Below, piece by piece: positions 5,826 to 22,193 of a DNA stretch of 23,474 nt. A program made the translations under genes and the position numbers. Each line of letters begins with the position of its first letter. The first letter of the stretch is position 1. The DNA comes from a virus. The notes beneath the pieces are model-generated. The model ran no database searches. It saw nothing but the letters and a program-made list of their open reading frames with translations, and was not told the origin of the DNA. The stretch spans positions 1-23,474 of the IMG/VR virus record IMGVR_UViG_3300044701_002647; one strand, written 5' to 3'.

Positions 5826-5859
5826 TGAGCGCCTCACGCAGGGTCAGCGGTTTGCTCAC
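5707..5859 (-). CDS. 50-residue hypothetical protein, last gene of the early operon
   Basis: Starts at GTG 5859, overlapping the stop of 5856-6293 as GTGA, with GGGGAGG eight bases upstream in mRNA sense. The protein starts MSKPLTLREALISRLETYAA with an amphipathic helix and ends in a Pro/Thr/Ala-rich tail (PTAAPRQTTPVAALLSQH). It lies almost wholly on the strand opposite the integrase 3' end. The good ribosome site and four-base overlap are the reasons for accepting it. Function unknown. Confidence 0.5.
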   Translation of the reverse strand: MSKPLTLREALISRLETYAAEVRSGRHVPQSAPTAAPRQTTPVAALLSQH

Positions 5860-6293
5860 TCCACCCTCCCCTTGAAGCTGGCGCACCAGCGGGCGAACAC
5901 GATGCCCTCGTCCTGCGGGTCCGGGTGGCCCAGGTCGCAGCGCTCGGCGTCCCAGTGGATGCACTGCTCACAGGTCGGTGGCTCCGCCTCCAGGTCCGGG
6001 ATCTCCATCACCTCGGTGACGTTCAGCTCCTTCTCCAGGTGCTGCCGCAGGGTCGCCATCGCATGCTCCAGCGCCTGGAAGCGATCCAGTAGCTTCGCTG
6101 CCCTGGTGGCCGCCACTGCATCCACTCGCGCGGTGATCTGGTCGTAGCGCAGCTCGTAGGTGGTGAACCTCTCACTGCAGCTCGAGCAGACGCACCGACG
6201 CCGGACGCGATCCATCAGCCGGCGGGACTCGAGCACCTGACGGGCGGTGGCGCCACAGCTGGGGCAGGTAATGCCGTCGATGGTGGTGGTCAT
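5856..6293 (-). CDS. NrdR-type zinc-ribbon protein with a C-terminal cysteine module
   Basis: A 145-residue protein; start ATG 6293 overlaps the upstream stop as ATGA. Residues 10-48 match the NrdR N-terminal zinc ribbon: Cys10-x2-Cys13, then VLESRR, then Cys36-x2-Cys39 followed by ERFTTYE. The ATP-cone domain of true NrdR repressors is absent. The middle (~50-95) is helical and probably coiled coil (RFQALEHAMATLRQHLEKEL). The C-terminus has a second compact module: Cys108, Cys111, His113-Trp114, Cys119, the GHPDP motif and Trp136-Cys137. The same N- and C-terminal modules occur in 21566-22015. A nucleic-acid-binding regulatory role is inferred. It sits directly after the dCTP deaminase-like gene. 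Confidence 0.75.
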   Translation of the reverse strand: MTTTIDGITCPSCGATARQVLESRRLMDRVRRRCVCSSCSERFTTYELRYDQITARVDAVAATRAAKLLDRFQALEHAMATLRQHLEKELNVTEVMEIPDLEAEPPTCEQCIHWDAERCDLGHPDPQDEGIVFARWCASFKGRVE

Positions 6294-6802
6294 CCCAGCG
6301 ACCCCATCACCGTGCCGTGGCCGTTGTAGCGGCCGGTCGCCCGGTAGCTGCGGCGTGGCGGCACGGCTAGGCGCTGCCAGACCATCTGGCCGATCCGCAT
6401 GCCGGGCCATAGCGGGATGTTGTGCAGCTGGCGGCTGTTGTGCAGCTCCAGCGTCAGCACCGATCCGTGCCAGCCGGGATCGCAGTAGCCGGCCAGTAGA
6501 TGCTCCAGGCCTTCGCGGGCACGGCTGGACTTCAGGACGAACTGCGCGGCGATCGTGTCCGGCAGGTTGAAGGTCTCGACCGTCTGCGCCAGCGCGAACT
6601 GCCCGGGCTTCATCCAGTACGGGTCCGCTTCGTCGTGGTGGTGCAACGGATACGGCACCAGAGCGGGTGACTCCGCGGATTCGATCAGGATCGTGTCACC
6701 CAGCCGCACGTCGAGGCTGGCCGGATTGAGCAGCGCCGGGTCGTATGGGCTCACCATGCCGGCGCGGCAAAGCTCATCAATCTGATGGTCAACGAGGATC
6801 AC
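6290..6802 (-). CDS. dcd: dCTP deaminase / dUTPase-fold enzyme
   Basis: A 170-residue protein from GTG 6802, which overlaps the upstream stop as GTGA. It carries the Dcd/DUT trimer signature: LNPASLDVRLGD at ~25-36, KSSRAREGLEHLLAGY at 91-106 with Ser93, Arg94 and Arg96, DPGWHG at 108-113, and TLELHN at 117-122 with Glu119 in the position of the Dcd catalytic glutamate. The C-terminus (RYNGHGTVMGSLG) resembles the lid that closes on the nucleotide. Likely reaction: dCTP to dUTP plus ammonia, feeding dUMP to ThyX in the same operon. The family also includes dUTPases and bifunctional enzymes, which cannot be separated by eye. Confidence 0.85.
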   Translation of the reverse strand: MILVDHQIDELCRAGMVSPYDPALLNPASLDVRLGDTILIESAESPALVPYPLHHHDEADPYWMKPGQFALAQTVETFNLPDTIAAQFVLKSSRAREGLEHLLAGYCDPGWHGSVLTLELHNSRQLHNIPLWPGMRIGQMVWQRLAVPPRRSYRATGRYNGHGTVMGSLG

Positions 6803-9560: not shown

Positions 9561-9926
9561 TTAGACCAGCTCCTTCCCTGACATGGACGGCAGGCTGTAG
9601 TCGTAAGCAGCAGGCGGATCGTTCGCGCCTTCGATGACCTCCTTGATGGTCTGAAGCTGCTCGGTGATGCCTTTGATCAGGCTGCGATCCAGGGGTGCCA
9701 GGTCGTCCCAGGCGTTGTCGTTGATGGCGCGGGCCGTGGACTCTGTTGCATCCAGCAGACCCAGCAGCAGCGGCAGCAGGGGGCGCTGCTTTTCGGGCAG
9801 GGCCTCGATGGCCTTGCGGTCGGCAAACCAGCGGCCCGGATCGGCAGGCATGGAGTCGCGGGCGGCGGTCAGGATCTGATCGCTGATGGCGCCGTCGCAC
9901 TGAAGCTCGTTGATGGTGGTGGCCAT
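9561..9926 (-). CDS. 121-residue helical protein, first gene of the long early chain
   Basis: Starts at ATG 9926, one base after an exact copy of the CCACCACACCACC leader box (9928-9940). It is all-alpha: MATTINELQCDGAISDQILT, then a long amphipathic middle (PLLPLLLGLLDATESTARAI) and a helix near the end (ITEQLQTIKEVIEGANDPPA). No catalytic or metal motif. It is the first of about fourteen closely spaced or overlapping genes reaching to 5707. A strong hairpin (9962-9983) separates it from the Gp157-like gene. Function unknown. Confidence 0.7.
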   Translation of the reverse strand: MATTINELQCDGAISDQILTAARDSMPADPGRWFADRKAIEALPEKQRPLLPLLLGLLDATESTARAINDNAWDDLAPLDRSLIKGITEQLQTIKEVIEGANDPPAAYDYSLPSMSGKELV

Positions 9927-9927
9927 G

Positions 9928-9940
9928 GGTGGTGTGGTGG
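9928..9940 (-). promoter_or_regulatory. leader box copy 1 (CCACCACACCACC in mRNA sense)
   Basis: Exact 13-base box ending one base before ATG 9926. No Shine-Dalgarno lies between it and the start. The same 13-mer occurs before five other minus-strand genes. Confidence 0.7.
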
Positions 9941-9961
9941 CGAGAGTGTTGGGATCATGGC

Positions 9962-9983
9962 GCCCCGGTTGCGATACCGGGGC
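9962..9983 (-). terminator. GC-rich hairpin after the Gp157-like gene
   Basis: Perfect eight-base stem GCCCCGGT/ACCGGGGC with a six-base loop, 12 bases after the TAA of 9995-10543. There is no U-tract, so termination may be partial, or the hairpin may act as an RNA-stability or processing element between two genes. Confidence 0.55.
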
Positions 9984-9994
9984 AGCTTGTGGCG

Positions 9995-10543
9995 TTACTT
10001 GATGGTCCAGGAGCGGCGCTCCACCAGCTGCGCACCGGGCACGGTGGTGCCGGCCTGGATGGCAGCCTTGATGGCGGTCTTGTCGGCGCTGTAGCTGGTC
10101 TTGACCCGGTAGAGACCGTCGGGCAGGTCCACCGGTGCGATGTCCGGGTCCACCTCGACGGTGGTGACGCGGCGGCTGCTGAGCTTGTGCTCGGGCAGTG
10201 CCCAGCTGGTGCGCTCAGGGTCGATCCGCTCCAGTGCCGCGGTCAGGCGGTCCTGCAGCACCTCGGCGCGGTGCTCGGCTTCGCTGGCCAGCTCGGCCAG
10301 GCGGCGGGCATGCTCGCGTTGGTTGACGGCCTGAGCCCGCAGGTGGTCGATCAGCCAGCACCAGGCATCGGCCTTGGCTTCCAGTGCCTTGCGGTTGTCG
10401 GCCTCGCTGGCGATCAGTGCCTCCAGGTCAGCGGTGGCGGTCGCCACCTCCTGCGGGTCGTCGGAGAACAGGAGCTCCGCAGCGTGGTCAATACGGGACT
10501 GGACTAGCAGCGCCTCGGAGGTGAGGGCGTAGAGGGATGTCAT
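9995..10543 (-). CDS. Siphovirus Gp157-like protein
   Basis: A 182-residue protein from ATG 10543, two bases after an exact leader box. Residues ~1-45 are helical (MTSLYALTSEALLVQSRIDH), ~45-110 form a long coiled coil (ALEAKADAWCWLIDHLRAQA onward), and the C-terminal part has the family ending: VDLPDGLYRVKTSYSADKTA, then IKAAIQAGTTVPGAQLVERR. In Gp157 proteins a DKxAIKxAIKxG-xxVPGA motif closes a beta-rich end domain; the match is good. Gp157 was linked to phage resistance in a Streptococcus phage, and the genes usually lie near SSB and recombination genes. A strong promoter (10588-10616) precedes it. Confidence 0.8.
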   Translation of the reverse strand: MTSLYALTSEALLVQSRIDHAAELLFSDDPQEVATATADLEALIASEADNRKALEAKADAWCWLIDHLRAQAVNQREHARRLAELASEAEHRAEVLQDRLTAALERIDPERTSWALPEHKLSSRRVTTVEVDPDIAPVDLPDGLYRVKTSYSADKTAIKAAIQAGTTVPGAQLVERRSWTIK

Positions 10544-10545
10544 CG

Positions 10546-10558
10546 GGTGGTGTGGTGG
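10546..10558 (-). promoter_or_regulatory. leader box copy 2
   Basis: Exact CCACCACACCACC in mRNA sense, two bases before ATG 10543. It lies in the leader of the transcript expected from the promoter at 10588-10616. Confidence 0.7.
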
Positions 10559-10587
10559 TGAATGGTGTGGGCTGCTGCCCTGCCGGG

Positions 10588-10616
10588 AGCATAGCGCAAC
10601 GCTACCGGGGCAGCAA
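10588..10616 (-). promoter_or_regulatory. sigma70-type promoter with operator-like palindrome, for the Gp157-like gene
   Basis: In mRNA sense TTGCTG (10616-10611), a 17-base spacer, and TATGCT (10593-10588). The spacer contains TAGCG-CAA-CGCTA (plus 10592-10604), a perfect five-base palindrome touching the -10 box. The same arrangement appears at 17533-17561 and 21534-21562. Confidence 0.65.
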
Positions 10617-10654
10617 GGTTTGCAACGGTGGGCAGGCTGCAGCGGTGGGAACCG

Positions 10655-10683
10655 GGCCCCGGCGCAGCGGCCGGAGCCTTTTT
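10655..10683 (+). terminator. hairpin plus T-tract, oriented for plus-strand transcripts
   Basis: Stem GGCCCCGGC/GCCGGAGCC (one G-T pair), six-base loop, followed by TTTTT on the plus strand at 10679-10683. In minus sense the run is AAAAA before the hairpin, six bases after the TGA of 10689-11138. It could stop the minus gene weakly and antisense transcription efficiently. Confidence 0.55.
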
Positions 10684-10688
10684 CTCGC

Positions 10689-11138
10689 TCAGGCCTTGGC
10701 GTAGGCCAGCTGCAGCAGCTCGCGCTTCGACAGCCGGCGCCGCACACCGAGCAGCTCGCGTAGCTGGCGATTGCTGAGGGCCTCCAGCGACGCGGTGCGC
10801 ACCGGTTCCGGTGCCGTAGCGGGCACCAGCAGCGCGGCATAGCGGCGGCCCAGGGCCTCGCTCCAGATCGGCAGCGCATCCCAGAGGCGCCGGGCATGTC
10901 GGCCGGCCTTGTGGGTCAGCTCCGCGGCGACGTAGAGCACGGCGGCGATCGTCACCAGCGCGGCGCGGATGCGGGCCCGGTGCTCGTAGGCGATGGCGGC
11001 CAGCAGAGCGATGCCAGCGGCCAGCAGCTGAGCAGCGAGCCAGCAGGCGCGGAAGCCGGCGGCGGTGCGTGTGGCGTAGTCGGCCCAGGGAAGGGCCTGC
11101 AGGCGAGCCAGGGCGGCCCGGATGGTCGTGGTGGTCAT
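10689..11138 (-). CDS. two-pass membrane protein with a C-terminal helical domain
   Basis: A 149-residue protein from ATG 11138. Two hydrophobic segments are visible at ~33-50 (WLAAQLLAAGIALLAAIAYE) and ~56-72 (IRAALVTIAAVLYVAAELTH), separated by a short basic turn (HRAR). The C-terminal ~35 residues (SLEALSNRQLRELLGVRRRL, then SKRELLQLAYAKA) look like a SAP/HeH-type helix-extended-helix that binds nucleic acid, or a small helical hairpin. One idea is anchoring of phage DNA or a protein at the membrane; this is inference only. Its leader does not carry the exact box. Confidence 0.65.
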   Translation of the reverse strand: MTTTTIRAALARLQALPWADYATRTAAGFRACWLAAQLLAAGIALLAAIAYEHRARIRAALVTIAAVLYVAAELTHKAGRHARRLWDALPIWSEALGRRYAALLVPATAPEPVRTASLEALSNRQLRELLGVRRRLSKRELLQLAYAKA

Positions 11139-11300
11139 TGTCGGAATGCTGTGGGGTGATCAGCCGGGGCGAACTCAGCGCCTCACCGGTTGATGTGGTC
11201 AGTGTACCGTGGATCTGCCGGGCGGGGTGGTTCCCGCCGGCTGCATCGGGTCCGTCCCGGTGTGGTGGTGGGGAGGCTCTCGGGCCTCCCCTGCACCGCC
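11139..11300. other. non-coding spacer with hairpin and weak promoter
   Basis: No gene is seen here. It contains the terminator-like hairpin at 11270-11291, a second hairpin GGCGGG/CCCGCC at 11221-11238, and a TACACT -10-like hexamer (plus AGTGTA, 11201-11206) without a good -35 at 17 bases. The latter may drive 10689-11138. Confidence 0.45.
11270..11291 (-). terminator. perfect hairpin after gene 11301-11486
   Basis: Eight-base perfect stem GGGGAGGC/GCCTCCCC with a six-base loop, nine bases after the stop. No U-tract follows in mRNA sense. Confidence 0.5.
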
Positions 11301-11486
11301 TCAGGCTGCGAGCCAGGCGCGGGCCTCGGCCTCGGTCATGTCGCCGGTGACAGGCCAGCTGTCGACCTGCAGGCAGGTGACGCGCTCCCAGCTGTAGCCG
11401 GTCCAGGTGCCGCTGATCCGGTCGAGTCGGATCGAGCTGCCGGAGGGCTTGAGCGGGTTGGTGGAGATGACGTGGGTGGAGCTCAT
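11301..11486 (-). CDS. 61-residue hypothetical protein
   Basis: Starts at ATG 11486, eleven bases after an exact leader box, under its own promoter (11536-11564). The sequence MSSTHVISTNPLKPSGSSIR, then LDRISGTWTGYSWERVTCLQ, then VDSWPVTGDMTEAEARAWLA gives a small beta-rich domain closed by a short helix. No motif is recognised. The complete set of promoter, hairpin, box and own terminator around so small a gene supports that it is expressed. Confidence 0.65.
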   Translation of the reverse strand: MSSTHVISTNPLKPSGSSIRLDRISGTWTGYSWERVTCLQVDSWPVTGDMTEAEARAWLAA

Positions 11487-11497
11487 CGGTCAGCTGC

Positions 11498-11527
11498 GGT
11501 GGTGTGGTGGTTCGGGATCGCTCCCGA
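11498..11527 (-). promoter_or_regulatory. leader hairpin (11512-11527) plus box copy 3 (11498-11510)
   Basis: The hairpin has six-base arms (TCGGGA/TCCCGA) and a four-base loop. It lies directly before the exact 13-base box, between the -10 hexamer and the ATG, so it belongs to the mRNA leader rather than being a terminator. Confidence 0.6.
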
Positions 11528-11535
11528 TGCAATGC

Positions 11536-11564
11536 AGTGTAGCCCATAGCGTGACAGTTGGCAG
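11536..11564 (-). promoter_or_regulatory. family A promoter for gene 11301-11486
   Basis: CTGCCA, 17-base spacer, TACACT in mRNA sense. The spacer and -10 contain the core GTCACGCTATGGGCTACACT, almost identical to those at 12209-12231, 12902-12930 and 13448-13476. Confidence 0.6.
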
Positions 11565-11565
11565 G

Positions 11566-11584
11566 GGCCCGGGCTGACCGGGCC
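11566..11584 (-). terminator. hairpin after gene 11593-11841
   Basis: Seven-base stem GGCCCGG/CCGGGCC with a five-base loop, just after the stop of 11593-11841 and just before the promoter of the next gene. No U-tract. Confidence 0.5.
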
Positions 11585-11592
11585 GCACCGCC

Positions 11593-11841
11593 TCAGTACC
11601 GAGCGGCCAAGGCGCCGGCCAGGTGCTGCAGGAAGTGGTGCACGTCGCCGTTGCGGAAGTCGATCTGGCGCAGGATGCCGGCGATCTGCTCCTGTTCGTG
11701 CGCCGGCGCGGACTGGATGGCTTCGATCACGCAGCCGGTCGGGATCATGTGCGGCGTGCCATCGGGAGCGGTCACGTCGTAGATGCGCTCGGCGAGATCC
11801 TTCTCGGCGAAGAAGCGGGACAGGTAGGTGGCGGTGGTCAT
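11593..11841 (-). CDS. 82-residue hypothetical protein
   Basis: Starts at ATG 11841, eleven bases after an exact leader box. It reads MTTATYLSRFFAEKDLAERI, then YDVTAPDGTPHMIPTGCVIE, then AIQSAPAHEQEQIAGILRQI, ending HHFLQHLAGALAARY: an alpha/beta start followed by two amphipathic helices. No metal or catalytic motif. It follows 11899-12162 by 57 bases with a conserved hairpin between, so the two may share the promoter at 12209. Function unknown. Confidence 0.65.
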   Translation of the reverse strand: MTTATYLSRFFAEKDLAERIYDVTAPDGTPHMIPTGCVIEAIQSAPAHEQEQIAGILRQIDFRNGDVHHFLQHLAGALAARY

Positions 11842-11852
11842 GGGTCGGTTGC

Positions 11853-11884
11853 GGTGGTGTGGTGGGCCGGGATGGGCTCCCGGC
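11853..11884 (-). promoter_or_regulatory. leader hairpin (11866-11884) plus box copy 4 (11853-11865)
   Basis: Seven-base stem GCCGGGA/TCCCGGC with loop GCCCA in mRNA sense, immediately followed by the exact 13-base box and ATG 11841. The hairpin matches those at 12635-12651, 13193-13209 and 21518-21533. Confidence 0.6.
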
Positions 11885-11898
11885 GGGCCGTGGGGTGG

Positions 11899-12162
11899 TC
11901 AGTTGTGGTAGGTCAGCTCCGGGGCCTGGTCGACCGGCTTGTATCCGCCTTCAAGGCAGCGCTTGTAGTGGCGGCGAGCCTGCTCCAGGGTGTACGTGGT
12001 GAAAGCGCTCCAGCTGCGGGGGCCGCCGAAAAGGATCACGCCTTCACCGTTGGCACTGGTGCTCATGGCGGTGACCTTGGATCCTTTGACGGAAAAGCTC
12101 ACCACGTTGATGTAATCCTCTCCAGAGTTTCCGGTCCAGTTGAGCTGCAGGGTGTGGGTCAT
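11899..12162 (-). CDS. 87-residue hypothetical protein
   Basis: Starts at ATG 12162, nine bases after an exact box. The first half is beta-rich (MTHTLQLNWTGNSGEDYINV, then VSFSVKGSKVTAMSTSANGE), followed by a helix (YTLEQARRHYKRCLEGGYKP). This resembles a small beta-sheet domain with a C-terminal helix, but no family is recognised. It has its own family A promoter at 12209. Confidence 0.65.
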   Translation of the reverse strand: MTHTLQLNWTGNSGEDYINVVSFSVKGSKVTAMSTSANGEGVILFGGPRSWSAFTTYTLEQARRHYKRCLEGGYKPVDQAPELTYHN

Positions 12163-12171
12163 GGTCTATCG

Positions 12172-12201
12172 GGTGGTGTGGTGGCCCGGCTCTCTCGCCG
12201 G
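12172..12201 (-). promoter_or_regulatory. leader hairpin (12186-12201) plus box copy 5 (12172-12184)
   Basis: Five-base stem CCGGC/GCCGG with a six-base purine loop (GAGAGA), then the exact 13-base box. The loop differs from the main hairpin family, but position and spacing are the same. Confidence 0.55.
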
Positions 12202-12208
12202 TCCCCAT

Positions 12209-12231
12209 AGTGTAGCCCATGATGTGACGCA
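12209..12231 (-). promoter_or_regulatory. family A promoter core for gene 11899-12162
   Basis: CGTCACATCATGGGCTACACT in mRNA sense contains the same core and -10 TACACT as the other three family A sites. The -35 is poor, so this copy may depend on a factor binding the conserved core. Confidence 0.5.
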
Positions 12232-12251
12232 CCGTGGGCACCGCTGTCGCA

Positions 12252-12467
12252 TCACGTCACACGCCGCCTGGCTCGGTAGGCCGCGATCCGCTGGCGCTGC
12301 CACTCCTTACCCTCTGGTGATCGCCTCCAGCAGTCGCGGCACAGCAGCCCATACCGGCCGCTCCGGCCCTTGCCGCAGGCGCATAGCAGCGGCTCAGCCG
12401 GTGGCAGCTCGCCACGTAGGCGGGCGCGGCGGCGGCGTTGGCGTTCGGCGGCAGAGTCCGGGCTCAC
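12252..12467 (-). CDS. 71-residue basic zinc-knuckle-like protein
   Basis: Starts at GTG 12467: it overlaps the upstream stop as GTGA and has AGGAGG seven bases before. The protein is very basic (SAAERQRRRRARLRGELPPA at the start, RIAAYRARRRVT at the end). A central CACGKGRSGRYGLLCRDCWR gives Cys-x-Cys and Cys-x2-Cys, a likely zinc-binding knuckle. A nucleic-acid-binding role is plausible from charge and cysteines. Unlike the box genes it uses a normal Shine-Dalgarno. Confidence 0.65.
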   Translation of the reverse strand: MSPDSAAERQRRRRARLRGELPPAEPLLCACGKGRSGRYGLLCRDCWRRSPEGKEWQRQRIAAYRARRRVT

Positions 12468-12610
12468 CAGTCGCCCTCCTGCTCGATGCGGACCCAGCCG
12501 GGGCACAGCTCGCGGGCGGCGAGGGTGGCCCGCTCCCGGCTGGTGGCGAGCAGGCTCTGGTGGCTACCGTCGGGGAAGACGACGCGCCAGGGGCGGAGGT
12601 GGTGGGGCAT
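12464..12610 (-). CDS. 48-residue hypothetical protein
   Basis: Starts at ATG 12610 and overlaps the next start by four bases (GTGA). The sequence MPHHLRPWRVVFPDGSHQSL continues with a helix (ATSRERATLAARELCPGW) and a final strand (VRIEQEGDW). The pattern strand, loop, helix, strand is that of a tiny alpha/beta domain. The leader holds the conserved hairpin and a diverged box. Function unknown. Confidence 0.6.
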   Translation of the reverse strand: MPHHLRPWRVVFPDGSHQSLLATSRERATLAARELCPGWVRIEQEGDW

Positions 12611-12634
12611 TGCGTCCGGTGCGGTGGGATGGGT

Positions 12635-12651
12635 GCCGGATGGGCTCCGGC
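12635..12651 (-). promoter_or_regulatory. leader hairpin before gene 12464-12610
   Basis: Six-base stem GCCGGA/TCCGGC with loop GCCCA in mRNA sense. Compared with 11866-11884 one base pair is missing from the stem while the loop is identical. It is followed by a diverged box (CCCATCCCACCGCACC). Confidence 0.55.
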
Positions 12652-12663
12652 GGGCCGTGGTGA

Positions 12664-12876
12664 TCAGGCGGCCTGGCAGAGCTCCCAGGTGGTATCTGAG
12701 ATCAGCTGATAGGTGCCAGGGCCGAGCACGGCGTCCAGAGCGTTGCTGATGGGGATGCCGGATTCGGTCAGGGTCAGGACGACCATCGAGATGGCTTGCT
12801 CCTTGGTGCAGCCGGTCTGGGTCAGGCAGTAGTTGAGGGCTTTGGTGATCTCGGGGCGACGGGTGGCGGTGGTCAT
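12664..12876 (-). CDS. 70-residue helical hypothetical protein
   Basis: Starts at ATG 12876, four bases after an exact box. The sequence MTTATRRPEITKALNYCLTQ, then TGCTKEQAISMVVLTLTESG, then IPISNALDAVLGPGTYQLIS gives three helices. A small helix-turn-helix or protein-binding bundle is possible, but no clear recognition helix is seen. It has its own near-consensus family A promoter. Confidence 0.65.
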   Translation of the reverse strand: MTTATRRPEITKALNYCLTQTGCTKEQAISMVVLTLTESGIPISNALDAVLGPGTYQLISDTTWELCQAA

Positions 12877-12880
12877 GGTC

Positions 12881-12893
12881 GGTGGTGTGGTGG
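12881..12893 (-). promoter_or_regulatory. leader box copy 6
   Basis: Exact CCACCACACCACC in mRNA sense, four bases (GACC) before ATG 12876 and only eight bases after the -10 hexamer. The leader here is very short, so the box must start almost at the RNA 5' end. Confidence 0.65.
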
Positions 12894-12901
12894 TTGTTCA
12901 G

Positions 12902-12930
12902 ACTGTAGCCCATGGCGTGACGCCTGGCAA
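12902..12930 (-). promoter_or_regulatory. family A promoter for gene 12664-12876
   Basis: TTGCCA, 17-base spacer, TACAGT in mRNA sense: the best -35/-10 pair in the window. It contains the conserved core GTCACGCCATGGGCTACAGT. Confidence 0.65.
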
Positions 12931-12933
12931 GGG

Positions 12934-13167
12934 TCAGGCGGTGAGCACAGCCGCGAACACGTCGTTGCGCAGGTTGGCCACGTGCTCGCGCTGGAAGGCA
13001 ACGTCCTGAGACTTGAACCAGGCGACGAAGGCGGCGATGCCGTCAGCCTCGGTCGCGTAGATGCCGACCTTGATGCTGGTGGGCACGGTGCCGGCGAAGG
13101 AGAACCCACCATCACCGCTGATCAGGTGGGTGCCGAAGGTGCCGGCGGAGAGAAGGGGAGCGGTCAT
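12934..13167 (-). CDS. 77-residue hypothetical protein
   Basis: Starts at ATG 13167 behind a variant box. The first half is Gly/Ser/Thr-rich and beta-like (LLSAGTFGTHLISGDGGFSF, then AGTVPTSIKVGIYATEADGI). A helix follows (AAFVAWFKSQDVAFQREHVA). It looks like a small beta-sandwich or hairpin with a helical end. No known motif. It follows 13224-13397 by 56 bases with the conserved hairpin in between. Confidence 0.6.
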   Translation of the reverse strand: MTAPLLSAGTFGTHLISGDGGFSFAGTVPTSIKVGIYATEADGIAAFVAWFKSQDVAFQREHVANLRNDVFAAVLTA

Positions 13168-13174
13168 GGCTGGC

Positions 13175-13209
13175 GGTGCGGTGTGGTGGTGGCCCGAATG
13201 CGCTCCGGG
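13175..13209 (-). promoter_or_regulatory. leader hairpin (13193-13209) plus variant box (13175-13192)
   Basis: In mRNA sense the stem is CCCGGA/TTCGGG with one G-U pair and loop GCGCA, then a variant box CCACCACCACACCGCACC. Stem bases change relative to the other copies while pairing is kept. Confidence 0.55.
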
Positions 13210-13223
13210 CGGGCGGTGAGCAG

Positions 13224-13397
13224 TCAGGCCAGGGACGCACTACAGGTGCTGATCCAGTGCTGCAGTTCCTCAAAACGGCGACGCAGCTCCAGGTAGCGGC
13301 CGGCGTCGCTGTGCGGCTTGAAGCTTCGCAGCTCAGCTGCGACTGTCTCCGCTTCGGCGGTGAACTGGTCGATTAGGGCCAGGGTCTGAGCCTGCAT
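13224..13397 (-). CDS. 57-residue coiled-coil mini-protein
   Basis: Read directly from the gap: ATG 13397 to TGA 13224-13226. The protein starts MQAQTLALIDQFTAEAETVA, continues AELRSFKPHSDAGRYLELRR and ends RFEELQHWISTCSASLA, a helical hairpin with heptad-like spacing. It sits under a family A promoter (13448-13476). A hairpin just before the start (13405-13420) encloses the only GGAGG, so translation may be controlled. Function unknown. Confidence 0.6.
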   Translation of the reverse strand: MQAQTLALIDQFTAEAETVAAELRSFKPHSDAGRYLELRRRFEELQHWISTCSASLA

Positions 13398-13447: not shown

Positions 13448-13476
13448 ACTGTAGCCCATAGCGTGACTCGGCGCAA
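13448..13476 (-). promoter_or_regulatory. family A promoter for gene 13224-13397
   Basis: TTGCGC, 17-base spacer, TACAGT in mRNA sense, with the core GTCACGCTATGGGCTACAGT. It lies just after the stop of 13490-13714. Confidence 0.6.
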
Positions 13477-17510: not shown

Positions 17511-17525
17511 GGTGGGGTGTGGTGG
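17511..17525 (-). promoter_or_regulatory. variant leader box before the RecT-like gene
   Basis: CCACCACACCCCACC in mRNA sense, four bases (GACC) before ATG 17506. It equals the 13-base box with two extra C residues. The GACC spacer is the same as before gene 12664-12876. Confidence 0.55.
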
Positions 17526-17532
17526 CTCCGGC

Positions 17533-17561
17533 ATCGTAGCGCACCGGAACCGTAGCGGTAC
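17533..17561 (-). promoter_or_regulatory. promoter and operator-like palindrome for recT-ssb-dnaN
   Basis: The -10 is TACGAT (17538-17533) with a weak -35 GTACCG 17 bases upstream. TAGCG-CAC-CGGAA (plus 17537-17549) overlaps the -10 exactly as at 10588 and 21534. A further CGTAGCGG lies at 17551-17558. Confidence 0.5.
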
Positions 17562-18594: not shown

Positions 18595-18631
18595 GGGGCC
18601 GAGGTCGGGGTGGTGGGAGATGTGGAGTCTC

Positions 18632-19915: not shown

Positions 19916-21309
19916 GCGGGCACCCTCTGCCCCCTGGCCTCCCTTGCCGCCAACACATGCCGGGCCCAGCCTCTCGGGTTCTTCATCCCCCGCTGGTGAC
20001 CCAGCGCCACCAGCTGCTCCAGCGTCTGCGCCTGGCCTTGCTCGCGGCGCTGCTCACGGTGGGCGGCCTGGCGTTGCAGCTCCTGCAGCTCGCCATCAAC
20101 GTGCTGCAGCTCCCTCCGCTCCGGCGCGAACGTGTGCCCGCACTCCGGGCAGGTCTGCAGGCGGCTGGAGATGGCCGAGAAGCAGGCCGGGCAGACCTTG
20201 ACGCTCGGCGATGCCTCCCTGGTGCGCTTGCTGATGCCCTCCAGGCTCCATTCCCTCGGGTCCGTCGGCAGCCCGTGCCGGTGGGCATTGCCGGCATGGT
20301 CGAGGATCACCGCGGTCTTCCCCTCCTGAGGCCGCAGCGCACGGCCCACCATCTGCAGGTAGAGCGCCAGGCTCATCGTCGGCCGCAGCAGGATCGCGCC
20401 GGCAACGCTCGGCACGTCGATCCCCTCGCCAATCAACGCGCAGCTGGTGAGCACCTTCAGCGCCCCGGTGCCCAGGTCCGCCAGCAGCCGCGCACGCTCC
20501 GCGCCGCTCATGCTCCCGTCGATACTCGCCGCGGCGATCCCACGCGATCGGAACGACTCCGCCACCGCTTCGGCATGGGCCAGGCTGCAGCAGAACGCGA
20601 TCGCGGTCTGGCCCGCCAGGTGCTGTCGGTAGTGGCTGACGGCATCACCCATCAGCGCACTGCCCAGCCGCTGCTCGGCCTCGCGCATGTCGAACTCACC
20701 CATCCGGCGGTGGATGCCGCCGGCATCGAAGCCAGGCGGTGCCAGCACACGGGCCGGTGCCAGGTAGCCATTGGCGGTCAGCCACTCGGCGCTGGGGCCC
20801 AGCACCAGCTTGGTGAAGTAGCCGCCCTGCCCTTCGCCAAGGCCACGGCCATCGAGCCGCAGCGGTGTGGCGGTCTTGCCGATCAGGAACGCCCGCGGCC
20901 AGGCATCGATCACCTTGCCCCAGGTGTTGCCCTGGATCAGGTGGTGCGCCTCGTCCTGGATGATCAGCGACGGCGCCGGGATCTTGTGCAGCCGCCGCAC
21001 GATCGTCTGCACGCTGGCCACCTGCGTCGGCAGCGACAGGTCCATGCTTCGGCCCGCGGCGATGACGCCATGACGGATCCCGAGGGCGCTGATCCGGGCG
21101 GACAGGTCGTTCACCAGCTCGGACCGATGAACCAGGATCAAGCTCCGGTGGCCCTTGGCGGCTGCGGTGCGCACCATCTCGGCGATCGTGCAACCCTTGC
21201 CGGCGCCGGTCGGCATCACGGCGAGGATCCGGCGGTGGCCCTCGACGCGCATCGCGGCGCGGATGTCGGCCAGCAGCTGCTGCTGGTACGGGCGGAGGGT
21301 GACGGTCAT
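19912..21309 (-). CDS. SF2 DEAH-box helicase with C-terminal zinc ribbon
   Basis: A 465-residue protein from ATG 21309, overlapping the leader peptide stop as ATGA. Motifs in order: Q-like RPYQ at 6-9, Walker A PTGAGKG at 33-39, DEAH at 119-122, TATP at 146-149, VLTSCALIGEGIDVP at 286-300 and QMVGRALRP at 319-327. A zinc ribbon follows with Cys373, Cys376, Cys387 and Cys390, then a Gln/Arg-rich helical tail. It belongs with ResIII/RadD-type phage helicases that unwind or remodel DNA during replication and recombination. The operon also holds VRR-NUC, the usual partner nuclease. Confidence 0.92.
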   Translation of the reverse strand: MTVTLRPYQQQLLADIRAAMRVEGHRRILAVMPTGAGKGCTIAEMVRTAAAKGHRSLILVHRSELVNDLSARISALGIRHGVIAAGRSMDLSLPTQVASVQTIVRRLHKIPAPSLIIQDEAHHLIQGNTWGKVIDAWPRAFLIGKTATPLRLDGRGLGEGQGGYFTKLVLGPSAEWLTANGYLAPARVLAPPGFDAGGIHRRMGEFDMREAEQRLGSALMGDAVSHYRQHLAGQTAIAFCCSLAHAEAVAESFRSRGIAAASIDGSMSGAERARLLADLGTGALKVLTSCALIGEGIDVPSVAGAILLRPTMSLALYLQMVGRALRPQEGKTAVILDHAGNAHRHGLPTDPREWSLEGISKRTREASPSVKVCPACFSAISSRLQTCPECGHTFAPERRELQHVDGELQELQRQAAHREQRREQGQAQTLEQLVALGHQRGMKNPRGWARHVLAAREARGQRVPA

Positions 21310-21356
21310 CCGGGGCGCTCCGGTGACGGTGCCGGGGCAGCGTGGGTCGTTGGCAT
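21306..21356 (-). CDS. 16-residue leader peptide coupled to the helicase
   Basis: ATG 21356 directly follows a CCACCACACC box with no spacer. The frame encodes MPTTHAAPAPSPERPG and stops at TGA 21306-21308, overlapping the helicase start as ATGA. The helicase itself has no good ribosome site, so ribosomes may reach it by translating this peptide. It is rich in Pro and Ala. A regulatory leader is more likely than a functional protein. Confidence 0.45.
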   Translation of the reverse strand: MPTTHAAPAPSPERPG

Positions 21357-21368
21357 GGTGTGGTGGTG
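21357..21368 (-). promoter_or_regulatory. shortened leader box before the leader peptide
   Basis: CACCACCACACC in mRNA sense, immediately adjacent to ATG 21356. It is the 13-base box lacking its last bases and shifted to zero spacing. Confidence 0.5.
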
Positions 21369-21565: not shown

Positions 21566-22015
21566 TCAGCGAGTTTCGTAGTCGTTGCACCAGCTGGCCG
21601 CCTGCAGGCCATCCTCATCAGGATCCGGCCAGCCCATCCCGCAGCGGCCGGTCCAGTGCTGGCACTGCAGGCAGCTCAACGTCTGCCGCCTGGGCAGCTC
21701 CGGGCACCAGTCGGCATAGCGCTCGCCGCTCACCACAGCCGCCACAGTGGGGATGCTGCGGCCTACCTGCCGGGCGATCTGCCTGAGGCTGCCATCTGCC
21801 TGCAGGATCCGCCGCACCTCCTCGGGCACCAGTCGCCGGTAGCTGCTGCCAGTGCCAGGTCGGCGACCGCCGCGATGGCCTGGTGGTTCACCATCGTGTG
21901 TCGTCCAGCGATGGCGGCAGCTGCTGCACTGGTGCCGGCGGCGCTTGGAGCCGTTGCTGCAGCGGGACACCTTGAGCACCTCGCTGGCGCAGTGGCATTC
22001 AGGGCAGGGGAGCAT
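21566..22015 (-). CDS. zinc-ribbon / HTH protein with the same end modules as 5856-6293
   Basis: A 149-residue protein. I choose ATG 22015; GTG 22039 would add eight residues. The N-terminal NrdR-like ribbon has Cys4-x2-Cys7, Cys30-x2-Cys33 and HRWTTHD. Residues ~64-102 form an HTH (VPEEVRRILQADGSLRQIAR, then QVGRSIPTVAAVVSGERYAD). The C-terminal module has Cys115, Cys118, His120-Trp121, Cys125, GWPDP, Trp142 and Cys143, aligned closely with the end of 5856-6293. The shared ends with different middles suggest related regulators, one with its own HTH. DNA binding is likely; the target is unknown. It ends just before the operator-bearing helicase promoter. Confidence 0.75.
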   Translation of the reverse strand: MLPCPECHCASEVLKVSRCSNGSKRRRHQCSSCRHRWTTHDGEPPGHRGGRRPGTGSSYRRLVPEEVRRILQADGSLRQIARQVGRSIPTVAAVVSGERYADWCPELPRRQTLSCLQCQHWTGRCGMGWPDPDEDGLQAASWCNDYETR

Positions 22016-22193
22016 CTTCCATCGCGGCAAGGTGCTCACGGGTCAGCCTCAGGACGCCATCGAAGTGCGCACGGTTCAGCTCGCCCTCATGCCGGCCCAT
22101 CCGGTAGGCCAGCTCACGGGCAGCCTTACATTCGGCTAGGTGGATGCCCAGCTTCCACTCGAACGTGCTGCACAGGCAGTAGGGGTCAGGCAT
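21999..22193 (-). CDS. 64-residue hypothetical protein
   Basis: Starts at ATG 22193, eight bases inside the previous gene, and overlaps the next gene by 17 bases. The sequence starts MPDPYCLCSTFEWKLGIHLA and continues as one long helical stretch (ECKAARELAYRMGRHEGELN, then GVLRLTREHLAAMEDA). Three Cys lie in the first 22 residues, so metal binding is possible. Function unknown. Confidence 0.6.
   Translation of the reverse strand: MPDPYCLCSTFEWKLGIHLAECKAARELAYRMGRHEGELNRAHFDGVLRLTREHLAAMEDAPLP

Follow-up and report, generated by a model that had tools for sequence, protein, structure and literature searches.

The 13-base box CCACCACACCACC is probably a sequence-conserved leader in the 5′ UTR that replaces the Shine-Dalgarno (SD) sequence and forms part of a modular start cassette of related temperate phages. 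Many small genes carry it directly upstream of the start codon, where it seems to take over the role of a conventional ribosome-binding site. From our sequence analyses, this reading is supported by the position of the box, the absence of an SD, the predicted accessibility of the start region, the promoter spacing, a hairpin with variable stems and conservation in diverged phages. The window analysed here is the entire virus record of 23,474 bp, and its genes encode a serine integrase, RecT, SSB, a sliding clamp, a helicase, ThyX and a Gp157-family protein. A near-DNA search of phages with the window gave no match. Based on protein matches to the Synechococcus phage S-LBS1 (RecT 54%, the 121-aa gene product 39%, Gp157 58%, helicase 53%), we infer a freshwater Synechococcus or Cyanobium host, and the phage group would comprise temperate phages of freshwater picocyanobacteria. 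The window also encodes two NrdR-type zinc-ribbon proteins, which are candidate regulators (5856–6410 and 21566–22039, both on the minus strand; Pfam Zn_ribbon_NrdR, the second match below the cut-off, with a possible helix-turn-helix).

The preliminary description had reported six identical 13-mers before start codons, and all six were recovered, on the minus strand only, with gaps between box and ATG of 1, 2, 4, 9, 11 and 11 nt. They lie at 9928–9940 (1 nt before the ATG of a 121-aa gene, 9561–9926), 10546–10558 (2 nt before that of the Gp157-family gene, 9995–10543), 11498–11510 (11 nt, 61-aa gene, 11301–11486), 11853–11865 (11 nt, 82-aa gene of phrog_6004, 11593–11841), 12172–12184 (9 nt, 87-aa gene, 11899–12162) and 12881–12893 (4 nt, 70-aa gene, 12664–12876), the last being predicted almost at the 5′ end of its mRNA. 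The box-led genes are presumably early genes, as they had been labelled. Between 0.002 (mononucleotide) and 0.013 (third-order Markov) exact copies are expected in the window, and at up to two mismatches there are 15 matches versus 1.24 in shuffles. Only 5.1% of the positions in the window lie 1–11 nt upstream of the ATG of an ORF of ≥60 aa, and the chance of all six copies falling before ORF starts is approximately 2 × 10⁻⁸.

Three of the four variants claimed previously are real and likewise lie on the minus strand: CCACCACCACACCGCACC (13175–13192) precedes the ATG of a 77-aa gene (12934–13167), CCACCACACCCCACC (17511–17525) precedes the recT start (17506), and the partial box CCACCACACC (21357–21366) lies directly before the ATG of a 16-codon ORF. 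The fourth, at 18603, is a loose C/A-rich resemblance only. The promoter and hairpin that precede the box had been missed, and so had a further C/A-rich variant, which is found at 11259–11276 on the minus strand, behind the hairpin GGGGAGGCCCGAGAGCCTCCCC and 12 nt before the ATG of a 15-codon ORF. Between the 61-aa and 149-aa genes lies a very short ORF that might also be box-led, but its region resembles another promoter as well, and we base nothing on it.

The contrast drawn earlier between box-led starts without an SD and the other starts was borne out, with a mean anti-SD energy of −1.0 kcal/mol for 10 box-led starts versus −6.6 kcal/mol for 23 others (P = 0.0006). For comparison beyond single genes, we used 42 distinct start-associated boxes, collected by the box itself at no more than one mismatch; near-duplicates were removed, as were, by judgement, four matches that seemed to lie within coding sequence. 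An anti-SD energy below −4 kcal/mol is found in none of the 42. Their start regions are predicted to be more unpaired than random positions (0.66 versus 0.41, P = 5 × 10⁻¹⁹), and within the window the same holds for box-led versus other starts (0.72 versus 0.50, P = 0.0005), the GGAGG starts, mostly of overlapping genes, being more structured than the box-led ones. Position, SD absence, accessibility and conservation thus lend good support, at the level of sequence, to the proposal that the box is a translation-start element.

Putative promoters are found upstream of the box at two preferred distances. TANNNT −10 hexamers lie 7–9 nt upstream in 11 of the 42 boxes (0.2 expected) and 21–30 nt upstream in 18 (0.6 expected); none lies at 0–6 or 10–20 nt, and two isolated matches are found at 34 and 40 nt. 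When a filter is placed on the bases preceding TANNNT, the counts become 11 short-spacer and 17 long-spacer cases. In the short-spacer class the box invariably follows an A or a G, at which the transcript is expected to start. In each of the 17 long-spacer cases analysed, a GC stem lies at most 10 nt from the box, mostly at 0–2 nt, with many different stem sequences and a loop that is often of the GNRA type. Because the stems were not brought into register when the hairpins were aligned with MAFFT, we compared them with shuffles and with random windows drawn from the same genomes, giving combined P values of 6 × 10⁻¹⁴ and 7 × 10⁻¹², respectively, for the 17 cases; folds of single natural leaders were modestly better than shuffles (z −0.65 to −2.8). 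From the −10 spacing and the hairpins, the predicted mRNA therefore begins with a hairpin or nothing, followed by the box, 0 to 16 nt and the AUG, which places the box in the 5′ UTR. The preliminary description had allowed for transcription starting downstream of the box, and this is contradicted by the predicted −10 positions.

The predicted module A promoter TCACGCTATGGGCTACA has four copies in the window versus 0.04 expected, all on the minus strand. TCACGCTATGGGCTACACT (11536–11554; −10 TACACT at 11536–11541) lies 25 nt before the box at 11510, and TCACATCATGGGCTACACT (12209–12227) lies 24 nt before the box at 12184; the 5′-UTR hairpins TCGGGA-GCGA-TCCCGA (11512–11527) and CCGGC-GAGAGA-GCCGG (12186–12201), also on the minus strand, adjoin these two boxes. 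TCACGCCATGGGCTACAGT (12902–12920) lies 8 nt before the box at 12893, without a hairpin. The fourth copy, TCACGCTATGGGCTACAGT (13448–13466), precedes the 57-aa gene starting at 13397, the only window gene with this promoter but without a box, and this gene carries an SD (GGAGG). Two further −10-like hexamers on the same strand are TATGCT (10588–10593), 29 nt before the box at 10558, and TACGAT (17533–17538), 7 nt before the recT variant box. A weak minus-strand hairpin, GGGC-AGCA-GCCC (10569–10580), lies 10 nt before the box at 10558, where the natural-leader fold pairs differently. A shared control point, which had been proposed to act through an RNA-binding protein, is likelier to reside in the promoter part of the module (TCACGCTATGGGCTACA).

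A type II class has no visible promoter and an intercistronic hairpin, GGCCCGCCGGGAGCC...ATCCCGGC, before the box. In the window this hairpin is GCCGGGA-GCCCA-TCCCGGC (11866–11884, minus strand), which abuts the box at 11865, and in the related phage sequence L364 the stem differs in sequence and keeps its pairing. Hairpins between small genes with a conserved GGCCCGCCGGGAGCC arm and no T-run are present in the window (11866–11890), L252, L364, L260 and L385, and may be processing, stability or attenuation elements. In addition, a dyad-like GCGGTTTCACAACCGC-type sequence is found just before a GCGCTAYGAT −10 in L269, L272, L301/L372 and L373, upstream of recT and Gp157, and is a candidate operator common to several promoters of the group.

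Related IMG/VR phages were found by RecT searches; scans of viral and genome collections for the box plus ATG were abandoned as a route to relatives, the matches listed being apparently unrelated single ones. The 13-mer does occur in related phages: an exact box before an ATG is present in eight of 47 whole records, including G042, which looks like a coding coincidence and was dropped. The reversed pattern was, with one exception, never found in the 47 records. The box is mirror-symmetric and reads the same backwards, so that a reversed-pattern control is uninformative for the bare 13-mer. In the 66-kb relative G007, nine copies with no more than one mismatch lie on one strand within 8.4 kb (46.4–54.8 kb). 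A composite search with the module A −10 region plus the box gave 16 stretches, several with two copies. No copy at 0–1 mismatch was found in S-LBS1, the nearest cultured phage found.

Box-led orthologues at 45–60% protein identity, pairs that were ascertained by the box, keep 12–13 of the 13 box bases, with changed promoter and hairpin. This includes the orthologues of the 121-aa gene (46–49% identity, 12–13 of 13 bases). The 61-aa gene, which in the window has its box behind a promoter and hairpin, is 77% identical in L252, where the box is kept with a type II hairpin and no promoter. In a list unbiased by the box, many operon-embedded orthologues have no box, which is thus not needed for those genes, and promoter-proximal orthologues usually have a C/A leader. 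For recT, most close relatives show a −10, 7–9 nt, GCCACC plus a C/A-rich leader and the ATG; across related phages most recT orthologues have a C/A leader and several the exact 13-mer, and several distant relatives of lower GC have purine-rich, SD-like starts. Since the recT leader drifts in sequence and stays C/A-rich, conservation of the box may in part reflect composition only.

In the mechanism that we propose, a TANNNT promoter would start the mRNA either with the purine that immediately precedes the box or at the base of the abutting short GC hairpin, and the 13 C/A-only bases would provide a single-stranded landing site for the 30S subunit before the AUG, without anti-SD pairing. The hairpin probably protects the 5′ end and prevents folding of the leader, and may stabilise the mRNA; the box would raise translation. 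With gaps to the ATG ranging over 0–16 nt, the box is unlikely to make a rigid contact with the ribosome. The box is best read either as such an unstructured C/A landing site or as a site for a specific factor, for which ribosomal protein bS1, another host or phage protein, or an RNA may be considered. A more far-reaching version, in which the 13-mer is a dedicated sequence-specific initiation signal in place of the SD, recognised by a particular factor of host or phage origin (protein, sRNA or rRNA segment) and enabling the phage to control or favour the translation of its early mRNAs as a set, is conceivable and we advance it tentatively.

The earlier statement that no element of this form had been described holds for the sequence, the exact 13-mer returning only unrelated papers in a literature search, but not for the arrangement, which is known from cluster K mycobacteriophages (PMC3203893, PMC11373665). 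Their SAS elements are 13-bp asymmetric boxes before many non-structural gene starts, with an unproven role (Pope et al. 2011, PMC3203893), and a subset, ESAS, has an inverted repeat and a putative promoter upstream; these repeats have a common sequence and are not regarded as RNA hairpins (PMC3203893, PMC11373665). The box shares with SAS its position (0–16 nt upstream of many starts, in coding-strand orientation) and its restriction to a non-structural region (9.9–12.9 kb in the window, 46.4–54.8 kb in G007), and its −10 spacing and hairpins match the ESAS arrangement of inverted repeat and SigA-like promoter. However, CCACCACACCACC does not conform to the SAS consensus GGGATAGGAGCCC, even with up to two deviations, and GGGATAGGAGCCC contains the SD core, whereas the box cannot pair with the anti-SD (0/42 below −4 kcal/mol). 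Unlike in ESAS, the stems vary in sequence, keep their pairing and lie downstream of the −10, and the inferred picocyanobacterial hosts differ from those of cluster K mycobacteriophages. By analogy, the box would work like SAS/ESAS without being a member.

The mechanism is most likely supplied, again by analogy, by CA-rich enhancers and SD-less open starts. ACA- or CA-rich leaders enhance translation of the enteric mRNAs yifK, dppA and gltI (PMC3879156). The box resembles them in being C/A-rich, containing ACA and lying near the start codon at a loose spacing, but yifK and dppA are individual host genes that bear an SD in addition (PMC3879156), whereas the box has no SD and recurs as one exact 13-mer in different genes and phages. 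An unpaired region is required at SD-less starts, in cyanobacteria as well (PMC3121790, PMC6847405). Box-led starts combine the absence of anti-SD pairing with low structure around the AUG, although SD-independent starts have been described without a conserved sequence motif and the box-led ones have one. The T7 gene 10 leader combines a 5′ stem-loop with an unstructured enhancer leader, which the box-led leaders share, but it is U/A-rich, SD-bearing and found at a single gene. About half of cyanobacterial genes have no SD (PMC3121790), and how cyanobacterial ribosomes find such starts is an open question. One short natural leader, present in many copies with and without a 5′ hairpin in related phages, makes this question directly testable. 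The box is also an SD-less parallel to the unexplained mycobacteriophage SAS elements, and its leader is a candidate expression part for picocyanobacteria.

We consider it unlikely that the box is instead a regulatory switch, bound by a G/U-rich sRNA or RNA-binding protein so as to raise or lower the output of many phage mRNAs in concert (cf. GcvB on CA-rich leaders), although a protein target giving one control point, as first proposed, is possible. The exact box sequence goes beyond composition, and CA-rich enhancers are sRNA targets in enterics (PMC3879156). Internal substitutions are nearly all A to G, mainly at positions 6, 8 and 11, with the Cs fixed, a pattern that fits sequence recognition but also GC mutation bias in a 66% GC genome. 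Moreover, the window has no G/U-rich complement closer than two mismatches, the two at that distance lying in coding sequence, an Rfam search gave no match, and no candidate for such a regulator was identified.

Still less probable is a DNA operator, a stoperator-like asymmetric 13-bp site at which a phage repressor silences many promoters or elongation in the lysogen. The phage encodes a serine integrase, the box closely follows promoters, in a single orientation, and cluster A stoperators are likewise 13 bp long (PMC3203893). Yet the box is tied to the ATG even where no promoter is visible (type II), and a DNA site would not be expected to show the C/A-only drift at recT or to coincide with SD absence and an open RNA structure; as an operator, the separate dyad upstream of the −10 is the better candidate.

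It is very improbable that the boxes are recombination linkers, i.e. short repeats that gene conversion or RecT-mediated annealing keeps homogeneous and that allow small genes to be shuffled. RecT is encoded and orthologues carry different upstream modules, but the box is fixed to start codons rather than gene ends, L269 and L301, for each of which the record or fragment searched contains a single exact copy, retain that copy upstream of recT, and several box-led genes have the same order in the window and L252, as judged from coordinates. Equally improbable is an origin in composition or recent duplication only, with generic C/A-rich leaders of SD-less genes and six young duplicates: degenerate C/A leaders do occur at many SD-less starts of these phages, but exact copies are >200-fold above composition (six of eight C/A-only runs at window starts versus 0.008 expected, and 13 of 42 such runs in related phages versus 0.054), and the identical box is set in unrelated flanking sequence, both at the six copies and at their orthologues.

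Two of the small genes deserve separate mention. The 16-codon ORF MPTTHAAPAPSPERPG that follows the partial box (21309–21366, minus strand) has a stop codon overlapping the helicase ATG (ATGA), which suggests translational coupling; no counterpart of the same form was found in the relatives listed. The product of the 82-aa box-led gene (11593–11841, minus strand; phrog_6004) has 35–59% matches in mycobacteriophages, an Escherichia phage and Methylophilales phages, and is a widely shared small protein of early type.
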